62,347 bases of DNA from Nitrospira sp. (lineage in GTDB: Bacteria > Nitrospirota > Nitrospiria > Nitrospirales > Nitrospiraceae). Positions 13,951 to 51,794 of this stretch are shown in pieces (the stretch's first letter is position 1; each line of letters begins with the position of its first letter). A program made the position numbers and the translations under genes. A model generated the notes under the pieces. It was not told the DNA's origin. It did no database searches and saw only the letters and a list, made by a program, of their open reading frames with translations. Location of the stretch: contig JACOEH010000026.1 of NCBI GenBank assembly GCA_024998685.1, forward strand, positions 1 through 62,347, given 5' to 3'.

Positions 13951-15358
13951 CCGCGAGAAGGGGAACCTTCTTTCTGAACATGATGACGAAAGCGAACGCA
14001 TCCTCATCGTCGATGACGACCCATCGATGCGAACCGCATTGATGGAGACGGTCAAGCGACTCGGCTACTCGGTGCAAGGCGCGGTCGATGGGATGGATGC
14101 CATCGACCGGCTTGCCCGCTTTCGTCCCTGGATGGTGCTGACCGATCTCCGGATGCCGCGTCTGAACGGTCTCGACTTGATCAAGGAAGTCAAGGCGCGC
14201 GCTCCCCAGGCCACGATCGTTCTCATGACGGCCTATGGAGCCATCGAAACCGCCGTCGAGGCCATGAAGTTGGGTGCCAGCGAGTATCTCTTGAAACCGT
14301 TTTCAATGGACGTGCTGGAACGGGTCATCGCGAATCTCAAATCGGGACGAGAAGAAGGGGCGGCCCCTGATCGCTCGCCCCATCCGACGGAAAACCGAGC
14401 CCTCTTAACTCAAGACCCAGGAATGATCCGTCTCATCAGTACCATCGAAGGAGTGGCGTCCAGCCAAGCCACCGTCCTGATTCAGGGGGAGAGCGGCACC
14501 GGAAAAGAACTGCTGGCCCGGTTCATCCATAACCGGAGCCCGCGGGCGCATCGGCCGTTCATCGCGGTCAATTGTGCGGCCCTGCCGGATGGGTTGCTCG
14601 AAAGCGAGCTCTTCGGCCACGAGCGCGGTGCATTCACCGGTGCGTTGATCAGAAAAATCGGCAAGTTTGAGATGGCTCATACCGGCACGCTGCTCCTGGA
14701 CGAAATCAGTGAAATGAATCTCACCCTTCAGGCAAAGTTGTTGCGCGTGCTACAGGAACGTGAGGTCGATCGGATCGGGGGGCGCGATCCCGTTTCAATT
14801 AATATTCGCGTGATCGCGACGACCAATCGGGCGCTCTATCGAGAAGTCGAACAAGGACGCTTTCGGGAGGATCTGTACTACCGTCTCAACGTCTTTCCGG
14901 TCACGGTTCCCCCCCTGCGGGAACGCACGATCGATATTCCCTTGCTTGCGCGGCATTTTGTAGGCCAGTCGGCCATGAGAAACGGTCTGACGCAACCCAC
15001 CCTGTCGGAAAGCGCGAGCGCTCACTTGCAACGGTTGACATGGAAAGGAAACGTCCGTGAGTTGGAGAACGTCATGGAACGAGCGGTGTTGCTGGCGGGA
15101 CATGGCCCGATTCTTCCCGAACACTGTCCACCTGAACAGAGCGGAGAAACGCCGGTCCTACCTGGTCCTCCGCAACAGCAGGCCAATGGATCGCTGTGGG
15201 AAATGGAGAGAGAGCTGATTTTTAAGACGTTGGCGCGAGTGAAGGACAATCGGACGCACGCGGCGAAGGAGCTCGGCATCAGCATTCGTACGTTACGAAA
15301 TAAACTGCGAGAGTATCGAGAGGGTGAAGGATCCTGTTCGATCTCCGCGCCATCCTAG
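13943..15358 (+). CDS. flrC: Sigma-54-dependent response regulator, FlrC/FleR/FlbD-like
   Basis: 471 residues. The receiver (about 18-130) has the acidic cluster D24-D26 and phospho-acceptor D68 in LTDLRMPR. The AAA+ domain has GESGTGKE, GAFTGA, TLLLDEISE and the arginine-rich region GNVRELENVMERAV. A C-terminal Fis-type helix-turn-helix ends in ELGISIRTLRNKLREY. It is the expected target of the upstream kinase and should switch on sigma-54 promoters of middle flagellar genes, such as the one before flgB 130 bases downstream. The ATG at 13943 overlaps the end of the kinase gene. Confidence 0.9.
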   Translation: MNDREKGNLLSEHDDESERILIVDDDPSMRTALMETVKRLGYSVQGAVDGMDAIDRLARFRPWMVLTDLRMPRLNGLDLIKEVKARAPQATIVLMTAYGAIETAVEAMKLGASEYLLKPFSMDVLERVIANLKSGREEGAAPDRSPHPTENRALLTQDPGMIRLISTIEGVASSQATVLIQGESGTGKELLARFIHNRSPRAHRPFIAVNCAALPDGLLESELFGHERGAFTGALIRKIGKFEMAHTGTLLLDEISEMNLTLQAKLLRVLQEREVDRIGGRDPVSINIRVIATTNRALYREVEQGRFREDLYYRLNVFPVTVPPLRERTIDIPLLARHFVGQSAMRNGLTQPTLSESASAHLQRLTWKGNVRELENVMERAVLLAGHGPILPEHCPPEQSGETPVLPGPPQQQANGSLWEMERELIFKTLARVKDNRTHAAKELGISIRTLRNKLREYREGEGSCSISAPS

Positions 15359-15490
15359 ACAAGGCAAGAATGACCGAGCGGTATTTTTTGCCCGGTCTGA
15401 TCGTCAGGCGATGAGGCCAGATTGCAGGTCGAGGCGAAAGAGAAGGATACGTGTCAAACACGATGGGTTCTGTCTGCCGCAACGTATGTA

Positions 15491-15507
15491 CAGGCATCGA
15501 GGTTGCA
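15491..15507 (+). promoter_or_regulatory. Sigma-54 promoter upstream of flgB
   Basis: CAGGCATCGAGGTTGCA has the invariant GG (15493-15494) and GC (15505-15506) ten bases apart and shares the -24 block CAGGCAT with the site at 10441. The expected start point near 15518 leaves about a 40-base leader before flgB. Confidence 0.75.
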
Positions 15508-15557
15508 TGATCAAGGAAAGTGCCCCCATGTAGCGCGATGAGAAAAGGAACAAATCC

Positions 15558-15968
15558 ATGACGATCTTTGACAGGACCATGCGGCTGTTGGAACGGACCC
15601 TCGACCTTCGCAGCGCGCGGCAACGCGTGATCGCCTCGAACTTGGCCAACGAAGAAACGCCGGGTTATCGCGCGTCGGAGTTGACCTTTATGGACCAATT
15701 GCAGTCGGCCCGCAAGGGACGTCTGCCGATCGTCATGGCTGCGACCCAGTCCGGACACTTCGGCGCTCACGGACGACAGGGCATTCAGGCAGTCACGGGA
15801 AAACTCAGTGAAGTCCCGGCCGGAGACCTCCCGCTGGACGCCAATTCCGTCAATCTTGAGTTGGAGATGGCCAAATTATCCGAGAACGCCATGCAGTACA
15901 ACGCGGCTGCCACGATACTGGCCAAGAGATTTACCAGCTTACTGAGTGCGATACGAGATGCGCGATAG
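15558..15968 (+). CDS. flgB: Flagellar proximal rod protein FlgB
   Basis: 136 residues, the usual size. The N-terminal helix and the motif RVIASNLANEETPGYRA are the conserved rod/hook start (ASNLANxxTPGY). The C terminus (ANSVNLELEMAKLSENAMQYNAAATIL) is the conserved partner helix. FlgB is exported by the flagellar type III apparatus and joins FlgC, FlgF and FlgG in the rod, directly above the MS ring. First gene of flgB-flgC-fliE-fliF-fliG-fliH-fliI-fliJ, driven by the sigma-54 site at 15491. Confidence 0.95.
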   Translation: MTIFDRTMRLLERTLDLRSARQRVIASNLANEETPGYRASELTFMDQLQSARKGRLPIVMAATQSGHFGAHGRQGIQAVTGKLSEVPAGDLPLDANSVNLELEMAKLSENAMQYNAAATILAKRFTSLLSAIRDAR

Positions 15969-15981
15969 AAAATCAGATCAA

Positions 15982-16051
15982 GGCTAAGGTCAAAGCTGAG
16001 CGACGCCCGTTCATGCCGGTCTACATCTTAACCTCAGCCTCAACCTTAACC
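15982..16051 (+). repeat. Inverted repeat/hairpin between flgB and flgC
   Basis: The arms GGCTAAGGT-caaa-GCTGAG (15982-16000) and CTCAGC-ctca-ACCTTAACC (16033-16051) can pair into a stem of about 15 bp with a small internal loop. It lies in the only sizeable gap inside the flgB-fliE cluster and ends about 20 bases before flgC. It has no U-run, so it is unlikely to be a simple terminator. It may stabilise or process the message, or be a repeat remnant. Confidence 0.5.
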
Positions 16052-16523: not shown

Positions 16524-16826
16524 ATGAGTCAGATTTACGGTCCGACATCCGGTATCGCTCCCATTCCCGATGTGGTGCCGGCCGGGCCGGCAGGAACGGC
16601 CGGCACCTCCGGATTCTTGGATTCTCTCAAATCCGCGATCGGAAAGGTCAACGACACGCAGCTGGAAGCCGGCCGAGCGGTGGAGGCCCTCACGGCAGGT
16701 GAAACGCAGGACCTGCATCGTACGATGGTCGCGCTGCAGCAGGCAGACGTGTCTTTTCAATTGATGATGCAAATCAGGAACAAGCTGGTTACGGCTTATG
16801 AAGAGATTCAACGGATGCAGGTGTAA
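16524..16826 (+). CDS. fliE: MS-ring/rod junction protein FliE
   Basis: 100 residues. Two ATGs occur in tandem (16521 and 16524); the second has better spacing from GGAGG (16514-16518). The C-terminal two thirds (FLDSLKSAIGKVNDTQLEAG, LHRTMVALQQADVSFQLMMQIRNKLVTAYEEIQRM) is the typical FliE helical hairpin. FliE connects the FliF ring to the rod and is needed before rod export. The next base after its TAA stop is the first base of a hairpin repeat (16827). Confidence 0.95.
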   Translation: MSQIYGPTSGIAPIPDVVPAGPAGTAGTSGFLDSLKSAIGKVNDTQLEAGRAVEALTAGETQDLHRTMVALQQADVSFQLMMQIRNKLVTAYEEIQRMQV

Positions 16827-16947
16827 CAGGATGCTGAAAAAGCCAGCCAGCGGCGTTCTCGCGTCGCTCAGAGGCTCAACGTACCGAAGCGTACGCCTCG
16901 CTCTTCGCTCGCTGCGGCCTTGCTGGACAGCCTTTTTGAGCATCCTG
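16827..16947 (-). mobile_element. MITE-like hairpin repeat, copy 1
   Basis: A 121-bp element with near-perfect terminal inverted repeats (CAGGATGCTGAAAAAG and the complement of CAGGATGCTCAAAAAG). It begins at the base after the fliE stop codon and is inverted relative to the copies at 34956 and 41094. Internally it has a short stem CGTAC/GTACG. It has no coding capacity. It probably also forms a strong RNA hairpin between fliE and fliF. Confidence 0.75.
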
Positions 16948-34955: not shown

Positions 34956-35110
34956 CAGGATGTTGGCAAACCAGGAGGAAGTCCCGCAGGCTGTTCAAAA
35001 AGGGCCGTTCGGCAAGGCCGCAGCGAGCGAAGGGGCGAGGCGTACATTGATAGGTACGTGAGCCCCTGAGTGATGCGAGAACGTAGCTGACGGACTTTTC
35101 CAACATCCTG
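34956..35110 (+). mobile_element. MITE-like hairpin repeat, copy 2
   Basis: This begins at the base after the fliM stop (CAGGATGTTGGCAAA) and ends with the complement of CAGGATGTTGGAAAA. A second internal left end (CAGGCTGTTCAAAAAGGGCC, 34987-35006) starts a 124-bp core like copies 1 and 3. Internal stem: AGGGGC/GCCCCT enclosing CGTAC/GTACG. It lies between fliM and fliN inside the operon. Confidence 0.75.
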
Positions 35111-35139
35111 TTAGTCGCGACATCACCGAGAGAGAAACC

Positions 35140-41093: not shown

Positions 41094-41216
41094 CAGGATG
41101 CTCAAAAAGGCTGTCCAGCAAGGCCGCAGCGAGTGAAGAGGCGAGGCGTACGCTTCGGTACGTTGAGCCCTCTGAGCGATACGAGAACGCCGCTGGCGGA
41201 CTTTTTCAGCATCCTG
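41094..41216 (+). mobile_element. MITE-like hairpin repeat, copy 3
   Basis: A 123-bp core (CAGGATGCTCAAAAAGGC ... CTTTTTCAGCATCCTG) in the same orientation as copy 2 and inverted relative to copy 1. A further degenerate left end abuts the flhA stop at 41016. The internal stem AGAGG/CCTCT encloses CGTAC/GTACG. It lies 13 bases before flhF. Confidence 0.75.
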
Positions 41217-41228
41217 TTGAGGTAAGCC

Positions 41229-43485: not shown

Positions 43486-44235
43486 ATGAGCAAGACAGTC
43501 TCATCGCACGAGCGGAAATCATTTTCGGCCCAGGGAGTCAGACGCGAACAACTCATCAAGGAGTTTGCCCATGTCATTCGCGCGATGGCTCATCGGCTGG
43601 CCTTCCGCCTCCCGGCGTACCTGGACGCAGAGGATCTGATTTCGGTCGGCACCATCGGACTCATGGATGCCATGGACAAGTATGACCCGACCAGAGAAGC
43701 GAAGTTCAAGACGTATGCGGAGTTCAGAATCCGTGGAGCCATGCTCGATGAGATTCGCTCGATGGATTGGATCCCACGATCGGTTCATGAACGAATCGGC
43801 CTGCTCCAAAAGACTCACACGGCGCTTATGAGTCGACTGGGGCGACCGCCGCAGGATGAAGAAGTGGCGGCAGAACTGAAGATGTCCTTGGAGGAGCTGG
43901 ATGATTTCATTACGCGGGCCAGAGGGGCTGTGATGATCAGCGTGGACGATTTAAATCTTCATGAGCCGGACGGGCACAATGTGGCCAAGATGCTGGCCGA
44001 CACGCACACGCCTGATCCCCTTTCCTCTTTGGTCAACGAGCGTGAGCGTGCATCGCTCGCCGGGGCCATTCAATCGTTGCCGGAAAAAGAACGGCTCGTC
44101 CTGACGTTGTATTACTATGAGGAGCTCACGATGAAGGAAATCGGAGAGCTGCTGAAAGTCACTGAGTCACGGGTTTGCCAAATTCATACCAAGGCCATCA
44201 TCAGGCTCAAGGCGCACTTGCAAAAACCGAATTGA
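43486..44235 (+). CDS. fliA: Flagellar sigma factor FliA (sigma-28)
   Basis: 249 residues. The segments LIKEFAHVIRAMAHRLAFRLP, LDAEDLISVGTIGLMDAMDKYDP (in pieces) and FKTYAEFRIRGAMLDEIRSMDWIPRSV (in pieces) form region 2. The C-terminal TLYYYEELTMKEIGELLKVTESRVCQIHTKAI (in pieces) is region 4. It directs late flagellar transcription and is held by FlgM (56196) until hook completion. FliA-like sites with an unusual 12-base gap are seen at 44312, 56093 and 61012. Confidence 0.96.
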   Translation: MSKTVSSHERKSFSAQGVRREQLIKEFAHVIRAMAHRLAFRLPAYLDAEDLISVGTIGLMDAMDKYDPTREAKFKTYAEFRIRGAMLDEIRSMDWIPRSVHERIGLLQKTHTALMSRLGRPPQDEEVAAELKMSLEELDDFITRARGAVMISVDDLNLHEPDGHNVAKMLADTHTPDPLSSLVNERERASLAGAIQSLPEKERLVLTLYYYEELTMKEIGELLKVTESRVCQIHTKAIIRLKAHLQKPN

Positions 44236-44311
44236 TCGAATCGGCCGACTGAGTCGTCTGCTCATCTGTATTCGTCCTGATGTCATTCGCGATGTCCCGC
44301 GATTGCCTGCC

Positions 44312-44339
44312 TTCAGTTCTGAGTCCGAGAAACCGATAC
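44312..44339 (+). promoter_or_regulatory. FliA-type promoter before the GGDEF-like gene
   Basis: TTCAGTTC (44312-44319), a 12-base gap and ACCGATAC (44332-44339) resemble the consensus TAAAGTTT/GCCGATAA and closely match the site before flgM (TCAAGTTC, 12 bases, ACCGATAA). Confidence 0.5.
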
Positions 44340-44457
44340 CTCACTGGACGAGATCCCGATAAGCGCCCGGTGGATCGAAAGAGAATTCATCGCATCAGGC
44401 GGAAGGTCTCCGGTTTATTCCAAATTCAGGTCAAGTCCTCAATCAGCAATCACGGAG

Positions 44458-45300
44458 ATGCACTTGAAGGTAACTCACCTTGGGTTCTCACGATCGCGAG
44501 ACCGCTCTTTTGCATGGTGGTGTGTCTCGGCAATGGTCTGCGGCGGAAGCGTGACATGGATGCAGCAGACACCGGTCGGTTCCACGAGCGTGGCCGAAGT
44601 CACCTCCGTACAGCTGGTCGTCGGATGGATTGGTCTTTTCTTTGCTGCCGGATTCGGTGTGGCGGGCCTTTTGTGTTGGCCGTCTAGTCAGGACTTCGAG
44701 CGGTGCAAGCAGAGGAGTTCGGTCTCGGCGTATGACAGCATCACCGGCCTGCCTACACGGCGACTGTATCTTGTGTTGCTCGGGCACGCATTGAGTAGAG
44801 CCGAGGCTACCACGCGGAACGTTGCAGTCTTGGTGTGCGCTTTGGAACCGTTCCGCCTGTTGCCCACCTCTTCATCCGCTCCAAATATGACGCTGGTCAT
44901 GCGAGTGCAAGCCGCCCGCATCAAGAGCGCATTGCGGTCTCATGATGTGGTTGCGCGCTTGGATGAATACATCTTCGCCGTGATCGCCGACAATCTCGAA
45001 TCATCGGACGAGGCTCGATTAGTCGCGGAAAAAATCCAACATGCCATAGCACTTCCACTCTTGATCGAAGGCCAGGAATTGCTGATTTCCTGCCGGATTG
45101 GGGAGATCGTGGGGCCGCAAAAGGGGATCGATGCCGAGTCACTACTTGATGCCGCATCACGAGCCCTCTCGGATAGTCAAACAGCTGACGTGTCCATTGC
45201 ATTTGTGTCGGGTGCCGCAACATCATCCATCTCTCCGTCGAACCAAACCCCTACAGGCCGAATGCGCCACTATGCGGACGCGAGTCCTCATTACGAATAA
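44458..45300 (+). CDS. Membrane protein with degenerate GGDEF domain
   Basis: 280 residues. Two hydrophobic helices lie near residues 20-40 and 50-72 (VVGWIGLFFAAGFGVAGLLCW). From about residue 90 a GGDEF-type fold is recognisable: YDSITGLPTRRLYLVLLGHAL, RSHDVVARLDEYIFAVIADNL and EKIQHAI. The signature GG[DE]EF is replaced by LDEYIF (D169, E170), so both glycines needed for GTP binding are lost. It is unlikely to make cyclic di-GMP and may instead bind nucleotide or a partner. It follows fliA with a FliA-like promoter, suggesting late flagellar expression. Confidence 0.75.
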   Translation: MHLKVTHLGFSRSRDRSFAWWCVSAMVCGGSVTWMQQTPVGSTSVAEVTSVQLVVGWIGLFFAAGFGVAGLLCWPSSQDFERCKQRSSVSAYDSITGLPTRRLYLVLLGHALSRAEATTRNVAVLVCALEPFRLLPTSSSAPNMTLVMRVQAARIKSALRSHDVVARLDEYIFAVIADNLESSDEARLVAEKIQHAIALPLLIEGQELLISCRIGEIVGPQKGIDAESLLDAASRALSDSQTADVSIAFVSGAATSSISPSNQTPTGRMRHYADASPHYE

Positions 45301-45426
45301 TCATGGATCAACCCGTACCGGTTTCCTCGCCTCCCCTTGCAACCCCTAATCCGAACGAGCCCTGGGCTTTTATGAATGCGTATACAAGGTTTCATTCGCT
45401 AATGAGAAGGAGATGCAGGGTGGCAT

Positions 45427-48400
45427 ATGAACAACGGGACAACCGACGGAGCTGAATCCACGGAGGCGTCGGTCGCCGTCCAGATTCTTGCCGATCCGAC
45501 TGTCAGCTATGCTTCTTACCAGAATAACGTCCCTCTCCTCCGCAGCCTCATCATCACCAACACCACTGACGAGCCGTTACGCGACCTCGAAATCTCTATG
45601 CATTGCGAGCCTGAGTTCGCAGACGCAGTGCGCTTTCAGTTTGAGCGGCTGGATCGCAAGGAAACTAGGCGTATCGATTCGCTGGACTTGAGATTTCGGC
45701 ATCAGTATCTCGCAGAGCTGAACGAGGCGGAGCGTGGTCGCATGATCATCAGGGTCAGTTCTGCGGGAACGGAACTCGCCTGCACCGATCATGCGGTGGA
45801 CGTGTTGGCCTACGATCAATGGGGCGGTGTGCGTTCCTTGCCAGAATTGCTGGCAGCGTTTTCCCTCCCAAACAACCCTGCTGTCGATCGTTTGATCTTC
45901 CAGGCCAGTGAGTTGTTGACTAAGGTGGGAGGTGGTCGTTTGATGAACGGCTACCAGTCGAAAAACCGCGAGGATGTGTGGGCACAGATTTCAGCGTTCT
46001 ATAGTGTGATCGGGGCTTCCAGTCTGCATTACAGCGAACCACCAGCCTCATTCACCAACGACGGCCAAAAGATCCGCACGCCGGATCGGGTACTCTCTGG
46101 CGGCATCGCGACCTGCATGGACTTAGCCATGCTGTTCGCTTCTGGCCTCGAACAAGCTGGTCTCAACCCTGTTGTGTTGATCAAGAAGGGGCATGCATGG
46201 ATTGGCTGCTGGCTCATCAATACGACATTTCCGATACCGACATGCGACGACGGTCAGGCGGTGCGCAAGCGGATTGCCAGTGGCGAGCTGATTGCGTTCG
46301 AAACTACAGTACTAACCCATCGGTCAAGGCCCTCGCTGCGTGTTGCCTGTGAGCTTGGGCTAGAGCACTTACAGCAGGAAGGCGAATTTCTGTTTGCTGT
46401 CGACGTCAAACGCGCACGCATCGAACAAGTGAGGCCGTTGCCAAGCAAGACCGAATCCGTGACTGACGAAGAAGACCGGTTGCAAGGGCGCGTCGTTGAT
46501 ACGGGTGTCGAGCCGTCTCCAGCGCTGCCGCCCCTGGACGGCGAGGTGTTTCTGCTCGATGAGAATGTGCGTTCAGAAACACCGGAAGGGCGGCTCGCCC
46601 GCTGGAAGTCAAAGCTTCTAGATCTCACGTTGCGCAACCGCCTGATCAATTTCAAACCGACGAAGATCATGCTGCCGTTGCGAGTGCCGGACCCGGCCCA
46701 TTTGGAAGATGCATTGGCTGATGGGCAGGAATGGAAGTTTAGACCGTTACCGCAGATCATGCAAGGTTCGGATCCGCGAGTTGCCTCTGTTGCTGCAAAA
46801 CGTACTGGCGAGGACCCGGTTGAGACGGTCGTGAAGCAGGCAATGGGACAGAAGGAGTTGCTCGCCGCCGTGGAGTCAAAGAAGCTTGATGCTCAGCTCT
46901 ACGAAATCTACAGCACTGCACGCCTCGGACTAGAGGAAGGCGGCGCCAATACGCTCTATCTGGCGCTCGGCTTCCTGCGATGGGCTGAAGATGAGCGTGC
47001 GGAGAAGACTCATCTCGCCCCGATTCTGCTGGTGCCGGTCATGCTCACGCGTCAGTCAGTGAGGACCGGCTATGCCGTCAAACGGCACGATGACGAAACC
47101 ATTGTCAATCCGACGCTGATTCAATTGCTGCGCGAGAATTTCCAGATGACGTTGAGAGGGCTCGATCCTGTGCCGACCGATGGAAACGGTGTGGACGTGA
47201 AGAAAATCTGGCAGATCTTCCGCCTCGCGGTGAAGGAAATTCCGCGCTGGGAAGTGACTGAAGAAGTCTATCTCGGTATCTTCTCGTTCACGAAGTACCT
47301 GATGTGGAAGGATCTGCACGACCGCGAGGCACAGCTCAAGCAGAATAGGGTGGTAGAGCACCTGATAGAACGGCCGAGGGACCCAATCGGGAGCAGTGAA
47401 GACTTGTCTCCGCGAGAAGATCTCGACGAGCGTCATGCGCCGGAGAGCCTGCTTGCGCCGCTGCTTGCGGACTCTTCGCAATTGAATGCTCTCAGTCGCG
47501 CCGGTGCGGGGCACGACTTCGCGCTGGAAGGGCCACCAGGCACAGGAAAGTTGCAGACGATTACCAATCTGATCGCGCATTTTCTTGGACACGGCAAGAC
47601 GGTGCTGTTTGTCTCGGAAAAGATGGCGGCACTCGACGTGGTCGAGCGCCGCTTAAAAGCGATCGGGCTGGGGCCGTTTTGCCTGGAGCTACATTCGGCC
47701 AAGGCACGCAAGACCGAGGTTCTTGCCCAGTTGCGCTCGGCCATGGATACTGCGTGCGGCATGGAGCAGGAAAACTGGAAGCGCGAGGCGGAACGACTCG
47801 GCAGGCTGCGCGGGGCTCTGAACGACTTCGTGAGAGCGCTTCACAAACGGCATCGCAACGGGCTGACGGTGCGGGGGGCCACCGATACCGCGATTCGGCA
47901 TCGCGGCTGGAACCCCGCTCCCATGTCATGGCCGGACCCCTACACTCATGATGAAGGGATGCTGGACTGGCTGCGGGAGACGATGCGCACCATCCAGTCG
48001 GTCGCGGGCGAGCTTGGCAAGTTCAAGAATCACCCGTTGTCCCTTGTACAGCACGCCGAGTGGACGAACGCCTGAGAAGAGCGGCTGTTCAAAGGGGCGG
48101 CCGCCCTGGAGGCAGCCGCCTCTCGGCTTCAAGAGGTCGCCATCGCTATTACTCCGATGTTGGGCATTCGATTAGACGCGCCTTCGGCTGTCTTACTGGA
48201 CGCCGTCGATGGGTTGATTGACGTCTTGCTGCAGGCGCCGCATGTGCCTAAAGAATTTGCCGCTCACGGTGGAAACCCGACTGTTCGAGCCAGCATGCAG
48301 ACTGTTCGACAGCATGGAGAACGTCGGCAGGCTCATTGGCGGCGGTTATCTGGAATATTCAAGTCCGAGGTTGCAGAAGTAAACGGTGCACAGCTAGCTC

Positions 48401-50718
48401 AGGATTGGAACCTCGCATCCAAAGCTTGGTGGCCCAAGCGCTGGTTTTTGCAGCGAGCGGTGATAGGTCGTCTGGTGCCTTACACCTCCAATCAGAGACG
48501 ACCCACTGTCGAAGAAATGCCACCTCTGCTTGACACCTTGCGTCACCTGAATGATGAAGATCATGAGCTGAAAGCTGTAGAGGCGCATTGTGTTGAATTG
48601 CTGGGATGCGAATACAAGGGTCCGAACACAGATTGGGCGACGGTGCAGCGCTATGAGCAATGGGGAAGGCTTTTTGAAGAAGCGGTCGAGCGAGTTGCGA
48701 GCGTTTCCGACGAGTCTATCGCTGCTGCCATGACCGAGTCGTTGCGCAAGCTCGTAGGCGAGCAACGCAGCCTGCTTCTTCCTACGGGCACGGCTAGCGG
48801 TAGGCTGACCGCGTTCCGTGATGCCTGGCATGCATTTCGGAGTCAGATCGCGGGGGTTGCCGAGCATTCAGGTGCTGGAAAGGCCTTGTCTGGAGAGCCA
48901 ACCGTCGCCGGGTTGCCCAGTCGGGTGAGAACGATTGTCGGGGGGTGGGTCTCATCCCGGCGCTACCTGAAGTTGTGGTGTCGGTGGCGTCAGCTGCGTG
49001 GACTGGCGCTGACTGGGGGACAGGAGACCGTTGTTAGCGCATTGGAAGATGAACGGATATCCGCTGATCAGTTCTCTGACTATGCCGAATATTCCTACCA
49101 GAACTGGTGGTTGAAGGCCGTGGTTGATTGCGAACCAACCCTGCGCAATTTCGCGAACGCCGACCATGACCGGAAAATCTTGGAATTCCGGCAGACCGAT
49201 GAACGCTTCCAAAAGCTCACCGAGCAATATATTGTGGCTGTCCTAGCAGGAAAGGTCCCGCGGCGGCAGTCGAGAGAAAAACCAGACAAGGAAATGGCGC
49301 TGGTCTTGAAAGAGCTTGCGAAGCAGCGAGCACACTTGCCGGTTCGGCAACTGGTTCAACGCATTCCTAACCTGCTTCCCAAGCTTAAACCCTGCCTGCT
49401 CATGTCGCCGCTTTCGGTGGCACAATACCTGGATGCTGCGCATTCGAACTTCGACGTGGTGGTGTTCGACGAAGCGTCCCAAATTCCTGTCTGGGATGCA
49501 GTCGGCGCCATCGCGCGTGGCAAGCAACTCATCGTGGTGGGTGACCCCAAACAGCTTCCGCCCACCAACTTTTTCAATCGGGCAGACGATGCCGAAGATG
49601 ATGTCTCGGGTAACGAGGAAGATGCGCTGGTCCCGGATCTGGAAAGCATACTGGATGAATGTCTGGGTGCCGGATTGCCTACCCTGCGCCTGGAATGGCA
49701 CTACCGCAGCCGGCATGAAAGCCTGATCACGTTTTCGAACCATCGGTACTATGATTCCAGATTGATTACCTTTCCGTCTCCTATGACGAACGACCTGGCT
49801 GTGAAGTTGATCCTGGTGGACGGTCTGTACGACCGTGGCGCGACCCGTACGAATCGTGCCGAAGCCGATGCCATTGTCAAAGAAATCGTGGCGCACTTTT
49901 CAGATGAATCGCGGTGCAAACTGACAATGGGCGTGGTGACGTTTAATCAGCCTCAGCAGCGACTCATCGAGATGCTGCGGGACGAAGAATTACGCAAGCA
50001 TCCAGAGCTTGAACAGCGCATAGCGAAACATGGGTCGGAAAGGCTGTTTGTCAAAAACCTTGAGAACGTGCAGGGTGACGAGCGCGATCTCATCCTGTTC
50101 TCCGTTACGTACGGCAAAGATGCTGCGGGGAAAATGGCCATGAATTTCGGGCCGATCAACCAGGATGGCGGACAACGACGGCTGAACGTGGCAATCACCA
50201 GAGCACGGACCGGGGTGATGATCTTCAGTTCCATCCGCCCCGACGACATCGATCTATCGAAAACGCGCTCAACTGGTGTCTCCGATCTGAAAAATTACCT
50301 CGAGTTTGCGATCACAGGTCCACGGGCTCTCGTAGAGCAGGCCATCCCGACCGGTCTGGAGCCTGATAGCCCACTGGAAATCGAGATTCTCCGTGCCTTG
50401 CGCGGCAAAGGTTGGACCGTACATCCCCAAGTCGGCTGTTCCGGCTACCGGATCGACATGGCCATCGTTCATCCACACCAACAGGGAAGGTATCTTCTTG
50501 GGATCGAGTGTGATGGGGCGACATACCACTCGTTGCCCACTGCACGTGATCGAGATCGCCTGCGCCAATTCGTGCTAGAAGGTCTGGGCTGGACGCTGCA
50601 TCGCGTATGGTCTACGGACTGGTGGAACGATCCGGAGCGGGAAATCGAGAAGCTGGAACAGTCAATCAACAAACGACTGGCCACTGACTCGTCTCAACGA
50701 TCAGGCTACATAGAGTAA
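45427..50718 (+). pseudogene. Giant SF1 helicase-nuclease (DUF4011 type), split by an in-frame TGA
   Basis: One frame of 1764 codons from the ATG at 45427 to 50718 has a single internal TGA at 48073-48075 (codon 883); an ATG at 48157 would start the second half. N-terminal region: a transglutaminase-like core with C230 (GGIATCMDLAML) and H256 (KKGHAWIGCW), then a DUF4011-like segment (RWKSKLLDLTLRNRLINFKPT, in pieces) and Walker A GPPGTGKL (701-708 plus L709, where S or T is expected). Second half: Walker B DEASQIPVWDAVGA (D1348), GDPKQLPPT, WHYRSRHESLI, VQGDERDLILFSV and NVAITRARTGV, then a Vsr/PD-(D/E)XK-type nuclease with IECDG (E1694, D1696) and RVWSTDWW. Large proteins of this architecture are linked to antiphage or genome defence. 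The sequence around the stop (EWTNA-stop-EERLF) suggests Trp TGG mutated to TGA. With two lesions it is probably inactive. Confidence 0.88.
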
Positions 50719-51023
50719 CTCTCCTTGGCGCAAGACGGCGGCCGGGAACGAGGCCACGACGTGGGGCGATTGTTGGCCTGCAGACGATCGATCATCCGAC
50801 TAGGCATATTTTTCACTGAGCCTGGTAAGAATAGCCTAATAATATCCTGTCAGTGATGACGACTTCCCTCATTCCTTCTTCCATCGGTATTCAGTCTTCT
50901 TATATCTCCTAAGGAATTGACTCATTTCTGATCGTCCGTTGGTACTTATCCCACCAATAGCTCGTCGGTGCGCCTGGCACGAGGGTTGCTGTCCCTCTCT
51001 CGAAAGCAAAAGGAGTCGGCGGT
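50719..51023. other. Upstream region of flgF
   Basis: A 305-bp gap after the helicase remnant. It holds the strong sigma-54 site at 50974. I found no terminator with a U-run, no small gene and no repeat. Confidence 0.45.
50974..50990 (+). promoter_or_regulatory. Sigma-54 promoter upstream of flgF
   Basis: CTGGCACGAGGGTTGCT matches the consensus YTGGCACGRNNNTTGCW at every defined base. The GG is at 50976-50977 and the GC at 50988-50989. The start point near 51001 leaves a leader of about 23 bases with AAGGAG before flgF. Confidence 0.92.
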
Positions 51024-51794
51024 ATGAATCGAGGTATCTATCCGATCCTGTCCGGAGCGCTGGCCCATGAACACCGGATGCAGGTCTTCGCAAACAACAT
51101 GGCCAATGTGAATACGTCCGGTTTCAAGCAGGACGAGCAGGCTTTCAAAGCCATATTTCCGCGATACCATGCGGTCGTTCCCACCGGCAGCCAAACCATG
51201 GGATTGGCGCAACAGATCATGGCCAGGCCGTTTGGACCGACTGAGCGCGTGTTTGTCGCGCCGCACCAGATCAAAACCACCTTTGAACCGGGTCGCATTC
51301 GACTGACCGGCAATCCGCTGGACATTGCCATTCAAGGACGGGGATTTTTTGAAGTCCAGACGCCTCAAGGGCTTCGATACACCCGCAACAGCATGCTCTC
51401 GTTGGATAATCAACGTCGGTTGGTGACCGGACTCGGCTATCCCGTGATGGGGACGAAGGGTGAGATCAAGATTCCTCCCGGCAAATTGGAGATTACACCG
51501 CAGGGAGCCATCAAGGTGGATGATAAACCTGCGGCGACAATCAAGGTCATGGAATTTGCGGATGACGACATGCCGATGAAGTCGTCTGAAGGGCTTTTCT
51601 CTTCAGAGAAGGGCACAGTGGCCAAGGATCCTCAGATTCAGGTCGGACACATCGAAGAGTCCAACGTCAATGCTATCGGCGAGATGGTGAAAATGATTCA
51701 GGGCATGCGCAACTATGAATCGACGCAAAAACTGATTCAGACGCTTGATCATATGGCTGATGTCGCCATTCAGGACGTAGGACGGGTGCTATGA
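51024..51794 (+). CDS. flgF: Flagellar proximal rod protein FlgF
   Basis: 256 residues. The N-terminal motif VFANNMANVNTSGFKQDEQAF, the middle AIQGRGFFEVQTPQGLRYTRNS (in pieces) and the C-terminal IEESNVNAIGEMVKMIQGMRNYE (in pieces) define FlgF. It is a rod subunit exported before the hook. It heads flgF-G-A-H-I-J and lies directly behind the consensus sigma-54 promoter. Confidence 0.95.
   Translation: MNRGIYPILSGALAHEHRMQVFANNMANVNTSGFKQDEQAFKAIFPRYHAVVPTGSQTMGLAQQIMARPFGPTERVFVAPHQIKTTFEPGRIRLTGNPLDIAIQGRGFFEVQTPQGLRYTRNSMLSLDNQRRLVTGLGYPVMGTKGEIKIPPGKLEITPQGAIKVDDKPAATIKVMEFADDDMPMKSSEGLFSSEKGTVAKDPQIQVGHIEESNVNAIGEMVKMIQGMRNYESTQKLIQTLDHMADVAIQDVGRVL

Follow-up and report, generated by a model that had tools for sequence, protein, structure and literature searches.

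Two questions are raised by a contig of Nitrospira sp.: how a very large helicase-nuclease gene comes to lie within a flagellar locus, and what should be made of the TGA codon in the middle of its reading frame. Translation of the relevant part of the window (the whole stretch analysed, 62,347 nucleotides) gives 1764 codons on the forward strand, from the ATG at 45427 to the TAA at 50716-50718, open save for one internal stop in the context EWTNA-stop-EERLF. An earlier note on this DNA had described exactly such a single frame with one interruption, as well as helicase and nuclease motifs conserved on either side of it, and both statements were borne out. The open frame around the TGA is not there by chance, as both halves match a single family continuously: positions 1-850 of the NCBIfam profile NF058533 ("anti-phage protein ProA") match the N half and 855-1713 the C half, while the PADLOC profile PDC-S37 covers the two halves with its positions 8-495 and then 502-1347. 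Overall, the frame very probably represents a ProA gene, a one-gene anti-phage system coding for a helicase-nuclease, that was inactivated recently. We see in it the ordinary decay of a member of a known defence family rather than a new case of recoding or a two-gene system.

The assignment to ProA is based on the score of the window protein when read through the stop (2079.1 bits against NF058533, an equivalog model with a curated cut-off of 1500 bits). The intact relatives at loci L017 (Nitrospira RBC093), L018 and L019 score 2114.7, 2098.5 and 2127.1 bits, and the Methylobacterium ProA 1909.8 bits. The view of the earlier note that this is a defence-type protein is hereby upheld at the family level. 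Among the PADLOC profiles PDC-S37 matched best, followed by Hhe. Protection from phages by ProA is suggested by the family name; a survey of the open-access literature returned no paper on either PDC-S37 or ProA.

The domain order and the other features of the locus are collected in Table 1. The first 395 residues have no Pfam match, and a PDB sequence search with the N-terminal alignment returned none either. Structure comparison, on the other hand, was informative for both N-terminal domains. The Ig-like sandwich matches the C-terminal barrel domains of transglutaminases and protein 4.2 (VIA-align, 97-104 aligned residues, rmsd 2.5-3.0). For the following domain (best match 132 aligned residues, rmsd 3.3) nearly all of the top 50 fold matches are transglutaminase/PNGase/Rad4-fold proteins. 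Within it Cys230 and His256 are invariant and Asp274/275 is conserved, so that the predicted model points to a papain-like core with a Cys-His-Asp arrangement at the level of the fold. The SF1 helicase segments fall on both sides of the TGA, the distal one including FDEASQIP, VVGDPKQLPP, EWHYRS, VQGDERDL and NVAITRAR, and the GYRID...ECDG motifs of the nuclease are conserved in the homologue alignment. With the transglutaminase-like fold recovered by structure comparison and the remaining domains by Pfam, the architecture proposed in the earlier note (transglutaminase-like domain, DUF4011, SF1 helicase, Vsr-type nuclease) proved to be right.

Table 1. Features of the fliA-flgF region (window coordinates, all on the forward strand).
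Feature	Position	Strand	Basis or remark
fliA (flagellar sigma factor)	43486..44235	+	left flank of variable spot; ends in TGA
GGDEF-domain gene	44458..45300	+	left neighbour of ProA
Region unalignable to sister species RBC093	45276..45418	+	alignment; ProA leader unrecognisable
ProA-family anti-phage gene, interrupted (probable pseudogene)	45427..50718	+	NF058533, 2079 bits when read through
Ig-like beta sandwich, residues 12-130	45460..45816	+	structure comparison, Z about 10-11
Transglutaminase-like domain, residues 134-335	45826..46431	+	predicted fold, pLDDT 79, folded alone; best Z 9.0
DUF4011 (PF13195), residues 396-568	46612..47130	+	Pfam, E 1.9e-45
SF1 helicase N-terminal ATPase segment with motif I (AAA_11 start)	47470..47661	+	Pfam
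Second lesion, Walker A Ser/Thr to Leu (GPPGTGK-L)	47551..47553	+	all other homologues found have Ser or Thr
In-frame TGA, codon 883	48073..48075	+	Trp in the other 10/10 full-length ProA sequences aligned
SF1 helicase motifs II-VI (AAA_11 end and AAA_12)	49420..50229	+	Pfam, homologue alignment
MTES_1575 Vsr-type REase (PF18741)	50377..50667	+	Pfam, E 2.9e-38
flgF leader, right edge of insert	50799..51023	+	conserved in gene-less relatives
Sigma-54-like promoter of flgF (TGGCACGAGGGTTGC)	50975..50989	+	downstream of insert; related sequence upstream of flgF in relatives
flgF, right flank	51024..51794	+	

The earlier note had suggested examining whether Trp is conserved at the TGA position and whether a sister genome carries an intact gene. 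The first nine homologues aligned (L017-L025), taken from the genome collection, are all uninterrupted (9/9) and have Trp opposite the TGA, as does the more distant, likewise uninterrupted full-length L095. The copy of RBC093 is syntenic and uninterrupted. The four Nitrospira-like homologues, one of them truncated by a contig end, are 79-88% identical. Since the TGA interrupts a frame that runs through in nine homologues, the window gene, which does not form a single continuous reading frame, is a broken descendant of a ProA member and not a working one. No naturally split ProA, which the earlier note had named as a sign of a two-gene system, was found among the homologues aligned or the family members from the phylum search, and the internal stops listed by that search for other members proved, in those checked, to be natural terminal stops. 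The window copy is therefore the only mid-gene interruption found. No second copy of ProA was found in the window genome (4.83 Mb, 105 contigs).

These observations bear directly on programmed readthrough or recoding, by which an amino acid would be inserted at the TGA and the complete ProA protein produced in a controlled way. The frame is indeed open and conserved past the TGA, yet all homologues have a plain Trp codon there, never TGA or Cys, and the stops inside other family members are the natural terminal ones just mentioned. Moreover, TGA also terminates fliA in this window, showing that it is a normal stop here, the RNA 3' of the interruption has no unusual degree of structure (fold z -0.67), and the P-loop change described below would disable the product anyway, all of which makes such a mechanism scarcely credible. 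An alternative code or recoding was rejected on the fliA stop and the Trp of the homologues, and a structured recoding element 3' of the TGA on the fold z value.

A second defect, which the earlier note had missed, lies in the same frame and is independent of the TGA. The P-loop of the window protein reads GPPGTGKL, with Leu at codon 709 in place of the Walker A Ser/Thr, and hence departs from the intact SF1 Walker A (GxGK[ST]). The Ser/Thr is kept in ~20/20 distinct homologue P-loops, including those of distant Hhe-like proteins, and Leu occurs in the window only. In P-loop ATPases it is this residue that coordinates the Mg of Mg-ATP, for which reason the helicase of the window copy is expected to be inactive irrespective of the TGA. 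Three further substitutions (Cys240Gly, Leu1147His and Leu1518Arg) affect residues that do not vary among the other aligned homologues; judging from the alignment, they are possibly additional damage.

The damaged motif also counts against a two-gene system, made of an N-terminal protein of 882 aa and a separately translated helicase-nuclease C half of 853 aa starting at 48157. There is an ATG at this position and the C half is open. However, it is the first possible start, 82 nt after the stop, and has no well-placed ribosome binding site; helicase motif I, itself damaged, would sit on a different protein from motifs II-VI, and no homologue is split. We regard this arrangement as hardly tenable. 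Very unlikely, too, is the idea that the N half (transglutaminase-like domain plus DUF4011) acts alone as a sensor or effector, with the stop reversibly turning off an expensive defence gene in some members of the population.

The 5' side of the gene has changed as well. A leader common to L017, L018 and L019 (pairwise alignment z 18.1, 8.6 and 5.8) was not recognisable when looked for by alignment in the upstream region of the window gene (Table 1). Its loss may have removed a promoter and silenced the gene.

To place the inactivation in time, substitutions on the window branch and on its sister L017 were polarised with L018-L020. Besides the stop, the window branch carries 83 amino-acid changes and 121 silent ones, compared with 71 and 125, respectively, on the sister branch (Fisher p 0.36 for the non:syn difference). 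The absence of a significant amino-acid excess argues for recent inactivation, with the neutral share of the window branch estimated at 9% (upper bound about 25%). A long-term pseudogene was rejected, since the substitutions on this branch are not significantly relaxed. The pattern is that of a ProA that selection, as far as substitution counts can tell, maintained through most of the period after the split from RBC093 and that was lost lately in the window.

An overall dN/dS that is not raised is also what an intact gene with one sequence error would show, and the difference within this otherwise clean 1764-codon frame is of a single base. In fact, a miscalled base could underlie the TGA, and another the P-loop codon. 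That the TGA is nothing but a wrong base call or an assembly fault, in an intact and functional gene, is nevertheless unlikely. It would leave unexplained the independent defect at a P-loop position that is always Ser/Thr in other homologues, and the unrecognisable leader. Furthermore, a gene-by-gene comparison with RBC093 (~36 common genes, ~45 kb) found an in-frame stop only in the ProA gene, which argues against generally poor sequence; two further stop matches were antisense ORFs over flhF and flgF and not real genes. Of the options for the TGA considered in the earlier note, recent inactivation is thus best supported (by the P-loop lesion, the loss of the leader, the Trp in other copies and the lack of stops in neighbouring genes), while programmed readthrough fell with the Trp of the homologues and the TGA at the end of fliA.

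The flagellar location can be understood from the nature of the site. Its placement between fliA and flgF in the earlier note was correct for the flgF side, but the immediate left neighbour is a GGDEF gene, itself after fliA. RBC093, the closest named relative at this locus, has its intact ProA in the same flagellar spot, and in gene-less relatives the alignment to the window resumes from about 50799. The fliA/GGDEF-flgF junction (window 44236-51023) is a spot of variable cargo in Nitrospira, and most genomes have nothing inserted there. Of the 19 further members of the genus that were compared, 14 have about 0.25-1.4 kb between fliA and flgF, and in the remaining 5 the gap measures 4-9.4 kb and holds unrelated cargo. 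This cargo (named by eye) includes a HicA/HicB-like pair, a RelE-like ORF, repeat-rich ORFs and an aminotransferase-like ORF with an acetyltransferase-like ORF. Being mixed, it speaks against a defence island and points to a permissive rather than a defence-specific spot. Insertion into a permissive operon junction, with flgF keeping its own promoter, accounts for the presence of a defence gene among flagellar genes. A dispersed intergenic repeat of ~122 nt was also noted in the window (16825-16946, 34988-35112 and 41095-41218); the window genome has about 13 near-full copies and further partial ones, and another copy directly follows the ProA gene in L018 (11273-11392).

Elsewhere ProA is rare. 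Only 5 of the 396 Nitrospirota genomes searched have a member above the cut-off, a patchy spread as expected of defence genes. A type I-G CRISPR-Cas operon of Nitrospira S2bin.17 (L019 4349-13575) contains an intact ProA, lodged between its csb2 and cas4-cas1 genes, and the CRISPR array that follows at 14073-16023 has at least 27 repeats with 36-nt repeat units. The gene of L018 is in an unrelated context, and no defence neighbours of ProA were evident by eye in Methylobacterium. The ProA encoded on a contig labelled as uncultured Acidobacteria (L020) shares 79% identity with those of Nitrospira, which may reflect mis-binning of the contig or a recent transfer of the gene.

The following scenario would account for the recent inactivation. 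ProA probably entered the GGDEF-flgF spot before the window species split from RBC093, then evolved under purifying selection during most of the period that followed, and was lost afterwards in the window species. The premature stop would remove helicase motifs II-VI and the nuclease, and the P-loop substitution would independently abolish ATP hydrolysis, from which we infer a null phenotype. As judged from its domains, intact ProA most likely recognises invading DNA, on which the SF1 motor would translocate in an ATP-driven manner and which the Vsr-type nuclease would cut; the transglutaminase-like domain may be a sensor or a second effector. That ProA occurs at a flagellar junction in some Nitrospira and within a type I-G CRISPR-Cas operon in another lends support to the view that this family, which has received little study, acts in defence. 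The sister pair, with ProA intact in one species and just lost from the same locus in the other, documents the loss side of defence-gene turnover.

Among known systems, ProA (NF058533; PADLOC candidate PDC-S37) has the same length class and domain order as the window frame, aligned over profile positions 1-1713. The last ~190 positions of the profile (1714-1903) are missing from all Nitrospira members, including the intact ones, which still pass the cut-off; unlike this clade, Methylobacterium members have a DUF3320/wHTH at the C-terminal end of the profile. Hhe (NCBIfam NF042953, PADLOC Hhe) has DUF4011, the SF1 helicase and the Vsr-type nuclease in common with the window protein, which scores 891.4 bits against NF042953 (cut-off 2000) and is hence a relative rather than a member. 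Longer giant proteins of the MTES_1575 type join HEPN, transglutaminase, SF1 helicase, Vsr REase and wHTH, and a defence role directed at DNA, and working without modification genes, was proposed for them (Anantharaman et al. 2013, PMC3710099). Neither a HEPN domain nor a C-terminal wHTH was detected by Pfam in the Nitrospira ProA proteins; what the MTES_1575-type proteins share with ProA is that a single protein unites a transglutaminase, an SF1 helicase and a Vsr REase.
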